From positions 248,001 through 312,000 of the forward strand of contig NZ_JAERMU010000001.1 of NCBI RefSeq assembly GCF_016756775.1: a stretch of DNA of 64,000 nucleotides. Direction: 5' to 3'. The notes under the pieces were generated by a model. It saw nothing but the letters and a program-made list of their open reading frames with translations. It was not told where the DNA came from and did not search any database. The position numbers were made by a program, and so were the translations under genes. The number at the start of each line of letters is the position of its first letter. The stretch's first letter is position 1. The DNA comes from Dryocola clanedunensis subsp. sulfonylureivorans (lineage in GTDB: Bacteria > Pseudomonadota > Gammaproteobacteria > Enterobacterales > Enterobacteriaceae). Below are positions 1,349-8,796 of this stretch, one piece after another.

Positions 1349-2338
1349 TTACTTGCCGCCCAGCCCTTTCTTCGCCAGCTCTTCCTTAAAGTTATCGCGG
1401 GTGATCAGCACCACGTCGGTCACTTCGGTGAACTTCGGCGGCTCGGCACCTTTGGTCACCCAGTTGTAGAGCATTTCGCTGCTCTTATAGCCGTGAACAT
1501 CCGGGCTTGGTAACAGGGAGCCGTAGAAGCCGGTCGGCTGCGCTTTCGACAGCTCGCTCACCGCATCCACGCCGTTGATGCCCACGCCAATCACGTCCGG
1601 CGCTTTGAAGCCCTGACCTTCGGTGGCGCGCACGCCGCCCAGCACGGTGTTGTCGTTCATGCCGACAATCAGCCAGTGTTTCACTTCAGGGTGCTGAACC
1701 AGCATGGAGTTGGCGGCGTCGAACGCGCCGGGGATATCGTTAGATTTGGTCGGCACCTTGTAGATTTGCTTTTCCGGGAAGCCGGCGGCCTTCAGGGCAT
1801 CCATAGATCCGCTGGTACGGCGGCGCGCGGTGTCCAGCTCGTCGGCGGTAATCGCCATCACGGCTGACTCTTTCACGTCCCAGCCGCGCTTGCGCATCTC
1901 TTTATAAAGCTCCTGGCCCTGGCGCTCGCCGATTTTCGTAGCGGCCATCATCACCAGCGGCACGGTTTCCATCGGCTTGCCTTTCGCCGTCACAAACTGG
2001 TCATCCACGGCGATAACCTTCATATCGTAGCTTTTCGCCTTCGCAACGATGGCGGAACCCAGTTTTGGATCCGGGGTACAGATGACAAAGCCCTTAGCGC
2101 CGCTCGCCGCCAGGCTATCGATGGCGTTCAATGTCTTCTCCCCGTCCGGGACGGCAATTTTGATCACTTCAAAACCCAGGTCTTTGCCGGCTTTATCGGC
2201 AAATTTCCACTCCGTCTGGAACCAGGGCTCCTCCGGCTGCTTGACCAGAAAGCCCAGCTTCATGGTTTCCGCCCAGGCGGATTGTGACATCACCGCCGCC
2301 AGGCCAACGGCCGCCAACGTTTTAGTGAATATGTGCAT
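1349..2338 (-). CDS. araF: L-arabinose-binding periplasmic protein AraF
   Basis: Periplasmic substrate-binding protein of the arabinose ABC importer. The 329 residues match the family length. The first 23 residues form a Sec signal peptide (basic start, hydrophobic core, cleavage after AWA before E). The mature protein opens with [16 protein letters not shown], the type 1 sugar-binder fold. It is the first gene of the araFG(H) operon. The 300 bp upstream should hold AraC and CRP sites, but I could not pick them out with certainty. In E. coli ftnB follows this gene; here an accessory block begins instead. Confidence 0.97.
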
Positions 2339-2654
2339 GTGGACTCCAGCTTGATTTTATTATCTGTAGGGTAAGAACTATGCAAAACAAGGTTTTAGCG
2401 AAACCGTTTGTCAACCTGATGTTTGCGATAGTTTTAGCGGGAAATTAATCATCCATAGGAGAGCGGAATCACACGGCAGAATTACAGTAATTGCGTGCAT
2501 ATATTCAGCAAGTTAAGCCATAAAAATTGGGGTATATGTATGATGAATGTGTTACGGGTTAGCTGAATTGTCCATGAGGCCAGTTAAACGGGAAGGGGTC
2601 TCTTAGTCACAACTCATCCCGGTTATACGTCAGGGTGGGATCTGTTAACCGGCT

Positions 2655-2925
2655 GGTTTTCCGTTCACCCGACCGTCTGGCTATCTCTGCTACCGTTGCG
2701 AACGGTGAACGTGCCATGGGATTTACGCCAATCCCCTGGCGACCCCGGCGCCCGGCAAATAAATCGCCGCTGAAGCGGTAAACTCCGGTTTTTACCCAAC
2801 ATGCAGGGTCGTTCGCGATTCGTTCCAGACGATCGCTCTCTCACGTTGTTCCCGACAACGTGACCCTGCCTGAAGGGCAAAAACCGGAGCGATTTAAGCC
2901 GGGAACAGGGTGTCGCTTTAAGTGA
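2655..2925 (+). repeat. Structured element, copy 1 (left arm of an inverted duplication)
   Basis: Copy 1 of a roughly 270-nt sequence that recurs inverted at 2990-3259. Hairpins seen: 2714-2723 with 2730-2739; an outer stem 2783-2797 with 2875-2889 (14 of 15 pairs); inside it 2803-2810 with 2862-2869, 2815-2823 with about 2829-2836, and 2843-2849 with 2855-2861. Two of the loops carry TTCC-type sequence (GTTCCAGAC and GTTCCCGAC). Stem sequences differ from copy 2 while the pairing is kept, which suggests selection on RNA or cruciform structure. I do not recognise the family, and no good ORF covers it. Confidence 0.75.
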
Positions 2926-2989
2926 AAATTCACATCAGATACTTCATCGCTTTAAAACCTACAGCGACACCGGAGTTGGGACATTCATG

Positions 2990-3259
2990 GAAGTTGAAGC
3001 GAGGGTGTTGGGTCCGGCTTAAATCGCCTCCATTTTTGGCTTCATGGCCGGGTCCAGCCGTCGGGAACGGCTGGAGGTTGTGATCGTCGGGAACGAATCG
3101 CAACCGACCCGGACAGGGAGCCAAAAATGGAGGTTTACCGCCGCAGGTGGCGATTTATTGCCGGGAGTCGGGAGCCCAGAGGGTGTGACGGCGAACACCC
3201 TCTGGTCGTTCACCGGTTCGGCAGCAACATATACCACCTGACGCAAAGTGAACGGAACC
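2990..3259 (-). repeat. Structured element, copy 2 (right arm, inverted)
   Basis: Reverse-complement relative of 2655-2925. Matching arms between the copies include 2661-2668 with 3248-3255, 2698-2711 with 3207-3220, 2751-2768 with 3149-3165, 2775-2783 with 3133-3141 and 2889-2902 with 3013-3027. Its own hairpins include a perfect 11-bp stem 3176-3186 with 3195-3205, an outer stem 3028-3041 with 3119-3132, and an inner stem 3053-3060 with 3066-3073 whose loop reads CGGGA. The same loop core, GTTCCCGAC on the minus strand, occurs twice. The spacer between the copies, about 2926-2989, shares no sequence with the arms. Confidence 0.75.
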
Positions 3260-3332
3260 TTCTCGATCTCTTAAATTACTCTCGAAGATCTGTATAAGAG
3301 GTCGCCGGGGTAAGGACGCCCGGGCTAACATT

Positions 3333-3836
3333 TCACCCCCAAAACTCCTGTATTCCCCCTTTTTTCCCCGCAACCGGGTCACAGGCGGGCATGGCTACCT
3401 TTGCCATGTGGTCACGCGCTTCGACCGGCACTTCGCGCTGGTCGAGATATTTATCGGGCGAGCAGCCTTCCGGGTAGGCCCCCACGCACATAAAATCTTC
3501 TGACGCTTCTATTTGCTTGTGCCCTACTCCCGCCGGGATCAGCACCGCGTCACCGCGGGTGATATCAACTATCGGGCCGGATTCGCCGCCGAGCTGGATT
3601 CTGGCGTTACCGGCGAACACGCCCAGCACTTCATGGGTGTTGGAGTGGAAATGGGTGTAGGTAAAAACGGTATAGCGCCAGCGCGGCGGCCAGCCGTTGC
3701 TGGCGAACAGGCTTTCAAACGCCTCAGCCAACTGCTCTTCGTGAGAGACGTGATGATAAAGCAGAAGCGGCAGCGCGCTGTTGGGCACGCCGCCGCTGGG
3801 CTGGTTCAGGGCCAGAGTTTCCAGTTCGGTCGCCAT
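3333..3836 (-). CDS. YjlB-like cupin-domain protein
   Basis: A 167-residue single-domain cupin resembling Bacillus YjlB-type proteins. The metal-binding cluster is visible as HFHSNTHE at residues 62-69, followed by a glycine-rich strand (FAGNARIQLGG) and the second cupin motif near GDAVLIPAGVGHKQIE. The reaction is unknown. The start is supported by a GGAG ribosome-binding site just upstream. It sits 59 bp downstream of the DJ-1-like gene on the same strand and may be the last gene of the accessory minus-strand run that ends here, next to the structured repeat. Confidence 0.8.
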   Translation of the reverse strand: MATELETLALNQPSGGVPNSALPLLLYHHVSHEEQLAEAFESLFASNGWPPRWRYTVFTYTHFHSNTHEVLGVFAGNARIQLGGESGPIVDITRGDAVLIPAGVGHKQIEASEDFMCVGAYPEGCSPDKYLDQREVPVEARDHMAKVAMPACDPVAGKKGGIQEFWG

Positions 3837-3895
3837 CGCTTTCTCCTTGGGTAAAAGAGTAAGTATAGAAACGACCGGGCTGAATGGCTTACTCC

Positions 3896-4453
3896 TTACC
3901 AGGGATAGTAGATGTGCTCTGCGTGATCCCGGGCCGCAGCCTCACTTCCTTCAAGCCGCGCCGCCACCGTCAGCGCAAAATCAAACACCTTGCCTAATCC
4001 CCTGCCGCTGATGAGATTACCGTCCTCTACCACGTCCGCATCGACGTAAACGCCGTCTGTCACCTGCTGCCATAAGTCTCCGGAGCAGACGTAGCGGCGG
4101 CCCTTCAGCAGGCCGTTACCGGCCAGCACGCGGGCGGCAGCGGAACAGATTGGGCAGATGAATTTGCCCAGCTCGTCATGACGGCGCACAAATCCGACAA
4201 CGCTGGCGTTTTTGGCCAGGTTCATGCTGCCGTCCGGCCCACCGGGCAGAACGACCGCATCGAACGTCGTGTCGAAGCTTTCTGCCAGGGTGGCGTCCGC
4301 CACCATCGGGATGTTGTGATAGCTGGTTACCGCGCGGGTATCAACACAGGATATCGTGGTCACCCCGATGTTCAGACGGCGTAAAATATCAATGGTGACA
4401 ATGGCTTCCCCTTCTTCGAAGCCGGGGGCCAGCAATACTGCAACGTTTTTCAT
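3896..4453 (-). CDS. DJ-1/PfpI family protein
   Basis: A 185-residue protein of the DJ-1/PfpI (ThiJ) superfamily, whose members include glyoxalases, chaperones and proteases. The N-terminal GFEEGEA supplies the conserved Glu (E16). The nucleophile-elbow cysteine is C103 in PICSAAARVL, with a second nearby cysteine at C100. VVLPGG at 67-72 is the usual strand-turn. The substrate cannot be told from sequence. It is co-directional with the GH88 gene (23 bp gap) and the cupin gene, so possibly one transcript, but neither protein has an obvious part in sugar breakdown. Confidence 0.85.
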   Translation of the reverse strand: MKNVAVLLAPGFEEGEAIVTIDILRRLNIGVTTISCVDTRAVTSYHNIPMVADATLAESFDTTFDAVVLPGGPDGSMNLAKNASVVGFVRRHDELGKFICPICSAAARVLAGNGLLKGRRYVCSGDLWQQVTDGVYVDADVVEDGNLISGRGLGKVFDFALTVAARLEGSEAAARDHAEHIYYPW

Positions 4454-4476
4454 ACCGCTTTCCTTTGCTTAATAAA

Positions 4477-5667
4477 TTACCAGTAGGGATACCAGATCTG
4501 ACGCAGGCGGGCCAGCGCTTCCAGATAGAAATAGTCGCCCCAGCTGCAGCACTGATCCACGCCCTTGCCGCTCGCCATGTGGTAAACGGAGTGCTTCAGC
4601 AGGCCTTCGGTTGGCTCATCGTCACCGGCCAGGTAGTTATCGGTCAGCGACTGGACGATGCGCAGCGCCATCTCTTCATAGTGGGCGCGATGCTCGTCCA
4701 GCGTCGGCAGCGCTTTAACCAGCTCCAGCAGGCCGCAGGCGGCAATGGCGCAGGCAGAGCTGTCTCGTATCGCATCCGTGCCGAGCAGGGCCAGATCCCA
4801 GTGGCAGACATCATCTTCCGGCAGGCGGTTGATAAAGTAGTGCGCCAGGCTGCGTGAAAGCTCCACCATACTGTGGTCGCCGGTGTGCTGGTAGCTGAGC
4901 AGGAAACCGTAGATGCCCCACGCCTGCCCGCGCGACCAGCAGGAGGTGTCGCTGTAGCCCTGGTGGGTATTACCAAAGCGCGGCTCGCCGGTGTTCACGT
5001 CCATATAGTAGGTGTGATAGGTCGACGAATCCTCGCGAACGATGTACTTCGCCGCCTGTTCAGCATGGGCCGTCGCCGCCTGCGCGTAGCGCTGGTCGCC
5101 GGTTTGTTCCGTCGCCCAGTAGAGCAGCGGCAGGTTCATGTTGCAGTCAATGATCATCCGCCCCTGCTGCTCCGGATCGTTCAAATCCCCCCACGCCTGA
5201 ATGATTTTCGCCACCGGGTTAAAGCGCTCCATCAGCGTTTCGGCAGCCAGCAGCGCAGACTGGCGGGCGGCTTCATTACCCGTTAAGCGCCATGCGCTGA
5301 CGCAGGAGAGCGAATAAAGGAAGCCCAGATCGTGGGTCGCCGTATCAATGCGTTTTTCGATGCGGTTGGCAAACGAAGGCAGATAGCGTTCGGCAGCGTC
5401 ACGGTATTTTTGATTGCCGGTCATCTCCCACGCCAGCCACAGCTGGCCCGGCCAGAAGCTCGTCGTCCACTCCACGTTTTCAGAGCGCGGCCAGACGCCG
5501 TTTTCGCACGCTTCGCCCGGGAACTTGTCGCCAAAGGCGACGATGTTCTTATCCAGCTTGCGCGTCACGCGGGCCAGCGCATCATCCAGCTTCTGGCGAA
5601 GGCGAAGCCTGTCCACCTGGTGCAATTCCACGGGGCGCAGGGCTTCGGTGATCACTGTCTTGGTCAT
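4477..5667 (-). CDS. GH88 family unsaturated glucuronyl hydrolase
   Basis: Predicted to remove the 4,5-unsaturated glucuronic acid that polysaccharide lyases leave on oligosaccharide ends. The start at 5667 is chosen over one 33 bp upstream because AGGAG lies 7 bases before it; this gives 396 residues. Family signatures: D113 in THDLGFLY and D174 in MIIDCNMN, matching the two catalytic aspartates of GH88, then a SDTSCWSRGQAW segment. No signal peptide is seen, so it acts in the cytoplasm on imported oligosaccharides. It follows the symporter gene by 13 bp, supporting uptake and cleavage as one function. The exact polymer is unknown. Confidence 0.88.
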   Translation of the reverse strand: MTKTVITEALRPVELHQVDRLRLRQKLDDALARVTRKLDKNIVAFGDKFPGEACENGVWPRSENVEWTTSFWPGQLWLAWEMTGNQKYRDAAERYLPSFANRIEKRIDTATHDLGFLYSLSCVSAWRLTGNEAARQSALLAAETLMERFNPVAKIIQAWGDLNDPEQQGRMIIDCNMNLPLLYWATEQTGDQRYAQAATAHAEQAAKYIVREDSSTYHTYYMDVNTGEPRFGNTHQGYSDTSCWSRGQAWGIYGFLLSYQHTGDHSMVELSRSLAHYFINRLPEDDVCHWDLALLGTDAIRDSSACAIAACGLLELVKALPTLDEHRAHYEEMALRIVQSLTDNYLAGDDEPTEGLLKHSVYHMASGKGVDQCCSWGDYFYLEALARLRQIWYPYW

Positions 5668-5680
5668 AACAACTCCTGAA

Positions 5681-6961
5681 TTAATGTCTGGACGTTTCAA
5701 CGGGGGCGGCGTCTAGGGCCGGAGAAAAAGTTCGCGATTCGTCCCGCGTTGACTGGCAGCGCGAGAGCGTAAAGGCGGAAATTAAGGTAAACAGCAGCGC
5801 GCAGCAGCCCATGATCAAATAGGTGTGCTCGAAGCCGATTTTGTCGTAGAGGTAGCCCGCGGGCGGCGCGACCACAATCGATCCCACGTAGATCATCGCC
5901 TGATAGCCCAGCAGGTACATGGTGGCGTTAACCCTTTTGTCGAAGTGTTCGGCGATGTACTTAAAGACGGAGATCAGCAGCAGCGCAATCTCCACGCCGT
6001 AGAAGGGTTTAATGATTGAAATAATGATCGGATCGTTGGTCAGGCCCGAGGCAATCAGCCTTGCGCCCACCACGCAGCCGCAGAACAGCAGGCCGCGTTT
6101 GGCACCGAAATGGTTAACCAGCAGCGGAATGAACATCATCATCACGAACTCCATGCCCGACTGCACCGTGCTCAGGTAGCCATACCAGGCGTTGCCCTGC
6201 TCTTTGGTGGAGAAGAACGAGACGAAGTAGCGCGGGAACTGCTGCTCAGCGATAAACATCATCCACGCCACGCCCGCCACATAGAGGCTGAACATCCAGA
6301 ACTTGCGGTTTCTCAGCAGCATCAGCACGTCGGCAAAAACGATTTTATTGGCGGAGAGCACGCTGTTATTGCGCAGCTGCTCGTCACCGATTTTCAGGCT
6401 GATGAGCACCAGCAGCATCAGCACTGACGTGGTGCTGCTGACCAGGAAATTTGCCAGCGGCGTGAAGTTAAACAGCAGCCCGGAGACGGAGGCGGCGACG
6501 GCCCAGCCGAGCGATCCCCACATGCGGATGCGGCCAAACTCCAGCCCGTACAGGCGGCTGAAGCGATCGGCGTAAGATTCGGATGCCGCCACGCCCGCAT
6601 ACCAGCCCAGGCTCAAATAGAGCGCGCCGATGACAATGCCAATCGTGGTGTGGCTAAGCAGCAGCGGCTGATAGACGGTGACGAAGAACGGAGCCATTAA
6701 CGCCGATACGGCACAGACAAAATAGAGCAGCCATTTGCTCATGCCTATCTTGTCCATGATGTAGCCGTAAACCGGCTTGAGGATCACCGCGAAGACGCCG
6801 TTAATGGCGAAAACGCTGCCGATGGTGATGCTGTCTAACCCTACTTTCTGGCTGAGCCACAGGGCGTAAAGCCCAAAGCTTGACGACCAGGTGAAGAAGT
6901 AGAGAAAGATAAAGGTGCTCATTTTGATCTGCGCGGTGCGCACGGTGGATGAAGCGGTCAT
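5681..6961 (-). CDS. MFS transporter, oligosaccharide:H+ symporter (LacY-like) family
   Basis: A 426-residue, 12-helix major facilitator of the oligosaccharide:H+ symporter type. The N-terminus (IKMSTFIFLYFFTWSSSFG) and the LEFGRIRMWGSLGWA segment after helix 4 are typical of LacY/CscB/RafB-like carriers. Its ATG overlaps the stop of the DUF2264 gene by 4 bp, so the two are translationally coupled. The GH88 hydrolase follows after 13 bp. The inferred role is import of unsaturated uronic-acid-containing oligosaccharides for the hydrolases beside it. Confidence 0.88.
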   Translation of the reverse strand: MTASSTVRTAQIKMSTFIFLYFFTWSSSFGLYALWLSQKVGLDSITIGSVFAINGVFAVILKPVYGYIMDKIGMSKWLLYFVCAVSALMAPFFVTVYQPLLLSHTTIGIVIGALYLSLGWYAGVAASESYADRFSRLYGLEFGRIRMWGSLGWAVAASVSGLLFNFTPLANFLVSSTTSVLMLLVLISLKIGDEQLRNNSVLSANKIVFADVLMLLRNRKFWMFSLYVAGVAWMMFIAEQQFPRYFVSFFSTKEQGNAWYGYLSTVQSGMEFVMMMFIPLLVNHFGAKRGLLFCGCVVGARLIASGLTNDPIIISIIKPFYGVEIALLLISVFKYIAEHFDKRVNATMYLLGYQAMIYVGSIVVAPPAGYLYDKIGFEHTYLIMGCCALLFTLISAFTLSRCQSTRDESRTFSPALDAAPVETSRH

Positions 6962-8796
6962 TGGGTGTTCTCCGGGGCCAGCGTGAGAGTTCTTTCTTCC
7001 TGTGCCGTCACGAAGCGTACAGCGTCATCGCGGATGAGGGCCTGTGGGCAAGATTGCGCGTTGAAGTCGTCGGGGTTGCCTGCCCAGACGGCGCTTATCA
7101 GCAGATGTTTGCCAGGCGTTAATTCACCGTGAAGTACCGGAACGGCAGCGCGTTCGGCAAACAAAAGATTGCTGTTCGGTGGGGTTAGCACCTGCTCGCC
7201 GCGACGCGTCTGCGGACTTAAGCAGAAGATGGCGGATGCTTCCGTTGTGGTTGTGAGCTGGCAGCTGCCCTGCCCGCCCTGCGATTCGGGCAGCGGCCGG
7301 TTCGGGATGCTGAATCCGCCTTCTGCCGTATCCAGGCCGCGGGCCGTATCAACATGGTGAACGCGTATCTGCCAGTCGCCCAGCGGCATTAGCCAGGTAT
7401 CGATAGTCACATCGTGCCACGCCTGCCAGCGGCAGTAAATCATGCCGTCCGCCGTGGTGACGTTCCTGCAGTCGCGGCGTCCGCGCCAGTAGCCGTCCTT
7501 CTCGGACAGCAGCAGCATAGAGTCCGCTGCCGCGTGGCTCAGCCCGAAGCGCCCGCGCTCTACGGTGAAACCGTAGCGGGTGGAGTAGGCAAACTTGCAG
7601 TATTTGGCTTCGGTATTGACGAAGTTATTCAGCTCGAGCTGCCCGGAAGTCAGCATCCACAGGTGATTGCGCTGATGAACAAGGATCTGATCGGCATGGG
7701 GAATACTGTGCTGCTTTGCCCGCTCGGGCAGAGGTAGCTCATCCGCCTGCCAGAAGGCGTCGTTCCCGGCCAGCGCCAGCACCAGCATGGTTTTCATGCC
7801 CCAGTAAGGGGAGCCGGGGGCGTTGTAATCCTCCGCCATAATCAGGTTCGGATAGCTGTAGCCGACGCTGAGCACGCCGTCGCGGTCGAACAGCGGCTGA
7901 CTCAGCCACCAGCGCAGATGGCGCAGCACTATGCCTTTCACCACGCCGGGGGAATACACCTCCAGCCCGGCAAACGCGACGGCGCTCCAGAACGCCCCCT
8001 GAGCGAAGCGGTAGGTCAGGCTGCGGCCAAACGGAATGGCGGCTCCGTCATCGGCGAAGAAATGGATAAAATCAGCGGCAAACAGCGTGGCGCGCTGGCG
8101 CAGTTCAGCGCAGCGGTCCGGATCTATGTCAGCCATCAGCTTCAAGTAAATCAGGCCGTAGAAATGGAAGCCCATGGAAATGTAGTAATCCCGCGGCCTG
8201 CCCGGCCCGTCGGAATACCAGCCGTCGCCCAGGTAGTACGCCTCCATGGCGGCGAAATGCTTTTCCAGCGCCTGGAAATTGGTTTCCATGCCGGCATGAT
8301 GAAAGCCGACCTGCACCAGAATCGGGAAGAAGTGCCAGTTGTTGTCCGGGATCGCCTGCTCTTCGCTCTGCTTCAGCCAGCGCCAGAGGTTCTCTTTCTC
8401 AGTCTCGCTGAAGTGGGCCAGCACGGTATCACCCGCCAGCGCCAGCAGCAGACCGTAGGCGGCCATTTCTACAATGCGCTGATCGTACGGCGCCACTTCG
8501 CCCCAGTAGTCCGCATGCTGTGGGCTGGTGCCGTTTTTGATCGCCTGAATATAGAAGGAGAACTGTTGCGGCTCGCTGCCGCCCGCCAGCAGCGGCGTAA
8601 CGCCCCACAGCAGGCGTGAAAAGGTTTCCATATTCGCTATGTGCTGCCCGTAGTGGGCGGTGAAATTCGCCAGGTCCACGCGGCTGGCATCATTTTTAAA
8701 GAATGGCGTCACCGCGCCGAGCAGCTCCTGAACCAGCAGCTGAACATCGTTTCGGCTTTTCAGCGGGTTAAGCAGGGTAATATTTTCAGGTTGCAC
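6958..8796 (-). CDS. DUF2264 domain protein, putative glycan-degrading enzyme
   Basis: A 612-residue protein starting at GTG behind a strong GGGAGG site. It has the DUF2264 opening (NPLKSRNDVQ, then NMETFSRLLWGVTPLL) with many aromatic residues over an alpha/alpha-barrel-like N-terminal two thirds, and a beta-rich C-terminal part. DUF2264 proteins are commonly encoded beside carbohydrate enzymes, and some are now assigned to glycoside hydrolase families, from memory GH154; I am not certain of that. No signal peptide is seen. As first gene of the minus-strand operon, divergent from an AraC regulator, it probably acts on the oligosaccharide that the symporter imports. Confidence 0.82.
   Translation of the reverse strand: MQPENITLLNPLKSRNDVQLLVQELLGAVTPFFKNDASRVDLANFTAHYGQHIANMETFSRLLWGVTPLLAGGSEPQQFSFYIQAIKNGTSPQHADYWGEVAPYDQRIVEMAAYGLLLALAGDTVLAHFSETEKENLWRWLKQSEEQAIPDNNWHFFPILVQVGFHHAGMETNFQALEKHFAAMEAYYLGDGWYSDGPGRPRDYYISMGFHFYGLIYLKLMADIDPDRCAELRQRATLFAADFIHFFADDGAAIPFGRSLTYRFAQGAFWSAVAFAGLEVYSPGVVKGIVLRHLRWWLSQPLFDRDGVLSVGYSYPNLIMAEDYNAPGSPYWGMKTMLVLALAGNDAFWQADELPLPERAKQHSIPHADQILVHQRNHLWMLTSGQLELNNFVNTEAKYCKFAYSTRYGFTVERGRFGLSHAAADSMLLLSEKDGYWRGRRDCRNVTTADGMIYCRWQAWHDVTIDTWLMPLGDWQIRVHHVDTARGLDTAEGGFSIPNRPLPESQGGQGSCQLTTTTEASAIFCLSPQTRRGEQVLTPPNSNLLFAERAAVPVLHGELTPGKHLLISAVWAGNPDDFNAQSCPQALIRDDAVRFVTAQEERTLTLAPENTQ

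Follow-up and report, generated by a model that had tools for sequence, protein, structure and literature searches.

Structure of the element and its arms

The window, a stretch of 64,000 nucleotides of the Dryocola clanedunensis subsp. sulfonylureivorans genome (G000), carries a 709-bp element (2596..3304, without assigned strand) between an araF-like gene (1349-2338, minus strand) and a cupin gene (3333-3836, minus strand). Six full copies at unrelated sites have the same limits, which replace the extent of 2610-3320 given in the preliminary description of this otherwise real feature. Protein coding was considered and rejected, as the element holds only short and overlapping open reading frames, the longest of 75 aa. 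The cupin gene itself belongs to a minus-strand set (3333-8796) of cupin, DJ-1/PfpI, GH88, LacY-type symporter, and DUF2264 genes, which adjoins the gene for the araF-like binding protein and perhaps serves sugar use.

The two ends were defined by sequence and by alignment of copies. The left one (2596..2614, plus strand) reads GGGTCTCTTAGTCACAACT and the right one (3286..3304, minus strand), read inward, CGACCTCTTATACAGATCT; they agree with the Tn5 mosaic end at 14/19 and 15/19 positions, respectively. Between them lie the cores of two structured arms of 151 nt each, arm 1 at 2752..2902 (minus strand) and arm 2 at 3014..3164 (plus strand), recognized by their folds and by scores of 128 and 125.7 bits against R1, a covariance model of the arm with 155 positions into which both had been built. 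Each core consists of a long closing stem, two hairpins with GGA in the loop (P2 and P3), and a small hairpin, P4. Sequence and alignment place P2 and P3 of arm 1 at 2842..2862 and 2815..2836 (minus strand), and those of arm 2 at 3054..3074 and 3078..3103 (plus strand), with the loop GGA at 3064-3066 and 3090-3092, respectively. The 5' ends of the arms are separated by a 111-nt spacer (2903..3013, no strand), which contains an inverted repeat (2909-2923 / 2957-2971) and no promoter-like site.

That the feature consists of two mirror-image arms with like folds and double-sided stem changes had been proposed before and was confirmed within 2596-3304. The outer stems CTCCGGTTTTT/AAAAACCGGAG and CTCCATTTTT/AAAAATGGAG, the inner stems ACGTTGT/ACAACGT and CAGCCGT/ACGGCTG, and the loop core GTTCCCGAC, which the opposite arm carries as the reverse complement GTCGGGAAC, are all present in the sequence. 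The arm length of ~270 nt proposed at the same time holds only if the outer hairpins are included; the inverted match between the arms, at 67-68%, covers only ~160 nt (about 2744-2902 versus 3014-3172), so that the arms are otherwise shorter. The fold of 2610-3320 was more stable than those of all 20 dinucleotide shuffles on both the plus (z = -15.2) and the minus strand (z = -13.4). Of the 61 base pairs in the structure shared by the two arms, 30 were the same, 12 differed on both sides, and 2 differed on one side, the remainder being unpaired in one or both arms (13) or gapped (4).

Single-sequence folding of 25 related arms gave the same plan in most of them. Four of the five structure measures determined on these arms exceeded the values of all 500 shuffles, among them the covariation score (0.314 versus 0.128 shuffled), the share of paired cells (78.7% versus 66.0%), and the number of pairs with a double-sided change (41 versus 29.1), which is support rather than proof, because related sequences can outdo shuffles even when unstructured and these same arms were the source of the structure. 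The number of further pair types was not exceptional (79 versus 75.0, with 74 of the 500 shuffles as high), and versions of the structure slid along the alignment reached a covariation of only 0.049 to 0.098. Covariation is thus found beyond the two arms of the window.

Copies, ends, and target sites

A sister copy with 94% identity lies elsewhere in the window genome, with fragments on two further contigs, and nucleotide-level matches were found in 9 of 99 relatives, so the feature is not confined to one genome. Five near-full copies are present in another genome of the same genus (G004). When copies were aligned together with their flanks, six of them (that in the window, L035, and four in G004) turned out to end alike and to diverge beyond the ends, at unrelated sites, and a seventh (L042) extends only to the inner ends. 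From a genome labelled Buttiauxella agrestis DSM 4586 (G240, JALKFA010000001), an alignment was made of nine two-armed copies that are ~80% identical to the window copy; the left end was recognizable in eight of them. End-bounded copies in this genome match the Tn5 mosaic end at up to 18/19 positions. Sites resembling the end with at most 2 mismatches numbered 41 there, whereas the reversed pattern gave a single site. The element thus has Tn5-type terminal inverted repeats, which are degenerate in the window copy. Many copies are internally deleted.

Flanking sequences were compared for 22 end-bounded copies, 15 of them from G240. Identity between left and right flanks at fixed length showed a clear excess at 10 bp only (0.557 versus 0.408), and the scoring of 9- to 11-bp duplications with at most 1 mismatch, picked after this excess had been seen, detected them in 10 of the 22 copies. 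Crossed flank pairs gave 9/462, and none of 2000 permutations gave more than 4. The window copy has no recognizable target duplication. One half of a hairpin resembling CCCTCTCCC...GGGAGAGGG was seen in the left flank of 17 and the right flank of 16 of the 22 copies, a count made without a control. Among the insertion targets of L035, L045, and L255-L269, many resemble such hairpins, which are apparently a dispersed repeat themselves.

The araF-cupin site is empty in three of the five other genomes of the genus (G001, G002, and G003), where the flanks lie ~130 nt apart; G005 retains the left flank alone and no element, and G004 carries a truncated element. At one chromosomal site the window genome (L037, contig C15) and G004 (L089) hold element remnants in opposite orientations, which points to an inversion or to two insertions. 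A search for the Tn5-type transposase domain PF14706 found nothing in the window genome and no match in 30 of the 32 module-bearing genomes, G004 and G240 included; the other two gave matches, of which one scored below the cut-off. The cognate transposase of a Tn5/IS4-type MITE, sought through PF14706 only, was thus not found.

The shared termini, the copies, the target duplications, and the empty sites show a transposable element with Tn5-like ends, which the preliminary description had overlooked. Its mobility is well supported, and the element in the window is very probably one copy of a nonautonomous transposable element with degenerate termini resembling the Tn5 mosaic end.

Distribution of the module and its relation to TwoAYGGAY RNA

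At E ≤ 1e-3, R1 matched 56 of the 198 genomes sampled from the family; ten genomes had at least 15 scored candidates, and three of these ten had weak best matches (E of 3.5e-8 to 2.1e-6). At E ≤ 1e-5, the model matched 9 of 247 genomes in a sample of the order and 6 of 299 in a sample of the phylum, of which 8 and 4, respectively, belong to the family of the window genome; the three samples overlap and contain the window genome. The number of units at E ≤ 1 was 20 in Enterobacter hormaechei, 24 (one of them at 0.44) in Leclercia adecarboxylata, and 5 in a Citrobacter. With the Citrobacter copy as the blastn query, 5375 of 5426 Escherichia coli genomes gave a match, at a median of 3 places and usually partial, as did 30 records of the plasmid collection, and with an E. 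coli copy 5376 of the 5426 genomes did. The window copy as the query had no match in plasmids, E. coli, or phages. E. coli K-12 has a unit of 112.6 bits between lysO and aqpZ (NC_000913.3:915031-915184, plus strand), where its record shows no feature. That the window arms belong to a wide module family is therefore well supported.

In another family of the same class, two genomes (G294, locus L208, and G378, locus L209) gave weak module matches (E of 4e-7 and 6e-6) that could be true distant members. Pattern matches in Vogesella, Thioalkalivibrio, Planctomycetes (two), Clostridia, and Defluviimonas (L104, L125, L158, L168, L172, and L173) were rejected, as none had an R1 match. Direct arrays of the module with a regular spacing of about 640 and 446 nt were seen at L028 and L014 (G016) and at L087 (G196).

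The facing of the arms, with the 5' ends inside, had not been recognized as the usual layout in other genera: it was found in 38 of 48 adjacent unit pairs (L028 and L060 being among the loci counted twice). The spacer is 39 to 111 nt long in 35 of these 38 head-to-head pairs, and its sequence is not alike between genera. Arm 1 of the window and arm 1 of L129, from another genus, share an identity of 0.87 and the two arms 2 one of 0.79, versus 0.67 for arms 1 and 2 of the window. The arm types have thus been kept distinct across genera, and the pair is therefore old.

The core of the module is related to TwoAYGGAY RNA (RF01731), which was reported in 2010 (PMC2864571) and whose function is given as unknown in a passage of a 2014 paper (PMC4333381). 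Of 31 loci scanned, 11 had a TwoAYGGAY match at E ≤ 1 or, in one scan, E ≤ 0.1, and three scored above the gathering threshold of 43: L048 with 53.4 bits and L084 and L085 with 49.2 bits each. The E. coli units span the full model with only 31 bits (E of 0.15 and 0.23). The window copy had no TwoAYGGAY match at E ≤ 10, and a scan of it against Rfam returned just two chance-level matches to unrelated families; by score it is a nonmember. It does have the layout of two hairpins on a common stem, and of the AYGGAY loops it retains GGA only, while AYGGAY-like loops (CATGGATG and ACAGGGATGT) occur in many relatives. A match to a known repeat family, which had been named as a refuting outcome, would thus apply at most in part: some relatives match a known RNA family, and the old E. 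coli RSA repeat may be identical with the module. Beside R1 units, TwoAYGGAY matches of 35 and 32 bits without an R1 match were seen at L014:1787-1842 and L028:2765-2820, so R1 misses some partner arms.

The suggestion of a functional RNA or a protein-recognized cruciform thus holds insofar as the arms are a multi-copy, covarying, structured module with a core matching TwoAYGGAY in some relatives; the whole is a transposable element.

GGA loops, rival readings, and known systems

Among 52 nonredundant units, drawn from 138 full-length ones, GGA was found in the P2 loop of all 52 and the P3 loop of 50, R1 matches leaning toward its retention because R1 itself has GGA in both loops. A closed ANGGAN hexaloop was formed by P2 in 37 of the 52 units, by P3 in 29, and by both in 27. 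GGA was absent from the P4 loop in 49 of the 52 and from the antisense P2 loop in all of them. The distance from GGA to GGA was 26 to 30 nt in each of the 123 measurable units (of 141), a spacing suited to one CsrA dimer. The loops of the E. coli K-12 unit are CACATGGATGTG and TTACAGGGATGTTA. In the window and Buttiauxella units neither loop is ANGGAN, and the loops read CGGGA, CTGGA, and similar, with GGA kept. In three arms of G240 (L146, L162, and L165) the P3 loop carries a multi-hairpin insert of some 60 to 75 nt whose loops, as judged by eye, include CAGGA and either ACAGGGATGT or ACACGGATGT. L036 of the window genome has a related insert (about 2018-2076, contig C17), and its hairpins lack GGA loops.

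A passage on CsrA gives its consensus as RUACARGGAUGU, with AC/GU pairing and an ANGGAN hexaloop (PMC7652899), and CLIP-seq in E. coli is described as enriching AuGGAug in stem-loops (PMC5694010). The CLIP-seq site listed there in the ybjX 3' untranslated region was considered as the K-12 unit and rejected, as it lies near the unit and not at its position. CsrA has also been suggested, in a passage of PMC4333381, as a binder of TwoAYGGAY. Docking of CsrA, suggested by the loop motifs, is a plausible but tentative reason why the loops are conserved.

The strand tests weigh on any reading in terms of RNA. In the well-aligned core stems G-U and A-C mismatches numbered 15 and 12 at 80% redundancy and 29 and 29 at 90%, with a bootstrap range of -13 to 12 for the latter difference. 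This equality weakens the RNA reading, because more G-U than A-C would be expected in an RNA made from a single strand. When all 61 pairs were counted, G-U exceeded A-C by 146 to 118, a surplus located in the outer stem (98 versus 55), where the alignment is poor. As a benchmark, three tRNA genes (3 G-U, 0 A-C) were too few for use. Single arms between codirectional genes showed no orientation bias (9 sense versus 12 antisense); an inverted pair could make orientation irrelevant, yet single arms would then be expected to be biased, so this too speaks against the RNA reading. By crude open reading frames, 28 of 69 placed clusters lie between convergent genes, 38 between tandem genes, and 3 between divergent genes, with 22 more unplaced, which is consistent with the module being part of read-through transcripts.

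A palindromic element that acts at the DNA level or is neutral is a serious rival to CsrA docking. At the DNA level the hairpins would matter, if at all, as cruciforms or single strands, and the stem changes would arise by template switching that repairs imperfect palindromes, with no selection on RNA. The equal mismatch counts, the unbiased single arms, the conserved head-to-head layout, and the palindromic hairpins serving as targets all agree with this; it leaves unexplained why GGA is kept in both arm loops when P4 so rarely has it, and why half of the units fit the CsrA hexaloop, and we consider it somewhat unlikely. Doubtful as well is a neutral or weakly useful genomic parasite of the ERIC or BIME kind, whose stable fold merely affects the 3' ends of transcripts. 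The scarcity of divergent placements and the many internal deletions fit such a parasite; the conservation of two GGA loops and of the paired arms goes beyond what it would require and speaks against it. Two stand-alone small RNA genes, divergent from a shared central promoter, would suit arm 5' ends that face a short spacer and are very improbable, because scans of two copies (that in the window and L129) gave no sigma-70-like site and the spacer sequence varies between genera.

We lean modestly toward an element resembling a MITE with Tn5-type ends, whose cargo of head-to-head, TwoAYGGAY-related modules acts in read-through transcripts, perhaps by docking CsrA. A Tn5/IS4-type transposase would work in trans on both ends and move the element, often into CCCTCTCCC...GGGAGAGGG hairpins. 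The arms would most likely function within transcripts running through the insertion, and each would offer its two GGA loops to one CsrA dimer; owing to their inverted arrangement, one of the two is in the GGA sense on either strand. They may then titrate CsrA or couple the host transcript to it. If so, this would be a transposable element that carries RNA-protein docking sites in place of genes.

A broader version, which we regard as improbable, is that a family of Tn5-type miniature transposons seeded enterobacterial chromosomes with orientation-independent modules for CsrA docking. Were it true, every two-armed insertion would supply one module in the GGA sense to the transcribed strand, whichever that is, copy number would tune free CsrA while insertions rewire neighboring genes, and TwoAYGGAY would be mobile-element cargo, of which E. 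coli and many relatives keep ancient remains. Because the TwoAYGGAY-related core occurs in pairs and in many copies in bacteria that are well studied, E. coli K-12 included, the CsrA proposal is testable. Even without the CsrA step, a widespread enterobacterial repeat is defined, for which the K-12 record is blank at the lysO-aqpZ site.

A literature search over titles, abstract openings, and passages returned no publication on this element. Its ends are like those of Tn5/IS50, the 18/19 agreement in G240 being the closest, and its target duplication of 9 to 11 bp is similar in length to that of Tn5, given as 9 in a passage of PMC2229646. Unlike Tn5/IS50 and IS4-type MITEs, it combines the lack of a transposase gene with a structured cargo, a preference for palindromic hairpins, and duplications of variable length. 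The RSA (BEE95) repeats known from E. coli are dispersed enterobacterial intergenic repeats of ~150 bp. The module, with its 155 model positions and its presence in nearly all E. coli genomes, is like them in size and occurrence and, by description, may be this old repeat. ERIC, BIME, and YPAL are not known to resemble the module in sequence or structure. They share with it that they are dispersed, intergenic, palindromic, and foldable, and passages of a stem-loop survey list BoxC, Eco-1, ERIC, and PU-BIME as E. coli families (PMC2267715). With the decoy RNAs CsrB, CsrC, and RsmZ, as outlined in a passage of PMC7652899, the module shares GGA in hairpin loops; unlike these RNAs with their many sites, it has two sites per arm, no promoter of its own that we found, and many dispersed copies. 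Like TwoAYGGAY RNA, some relatives have a closing stem and two GGA-loop hairpins joined by AG and followed by CGG. Unlike that RNA, which Rfam types as cis-regulatory, the module stands mostly in inverted pairs and is part of a transposable element in some genera.
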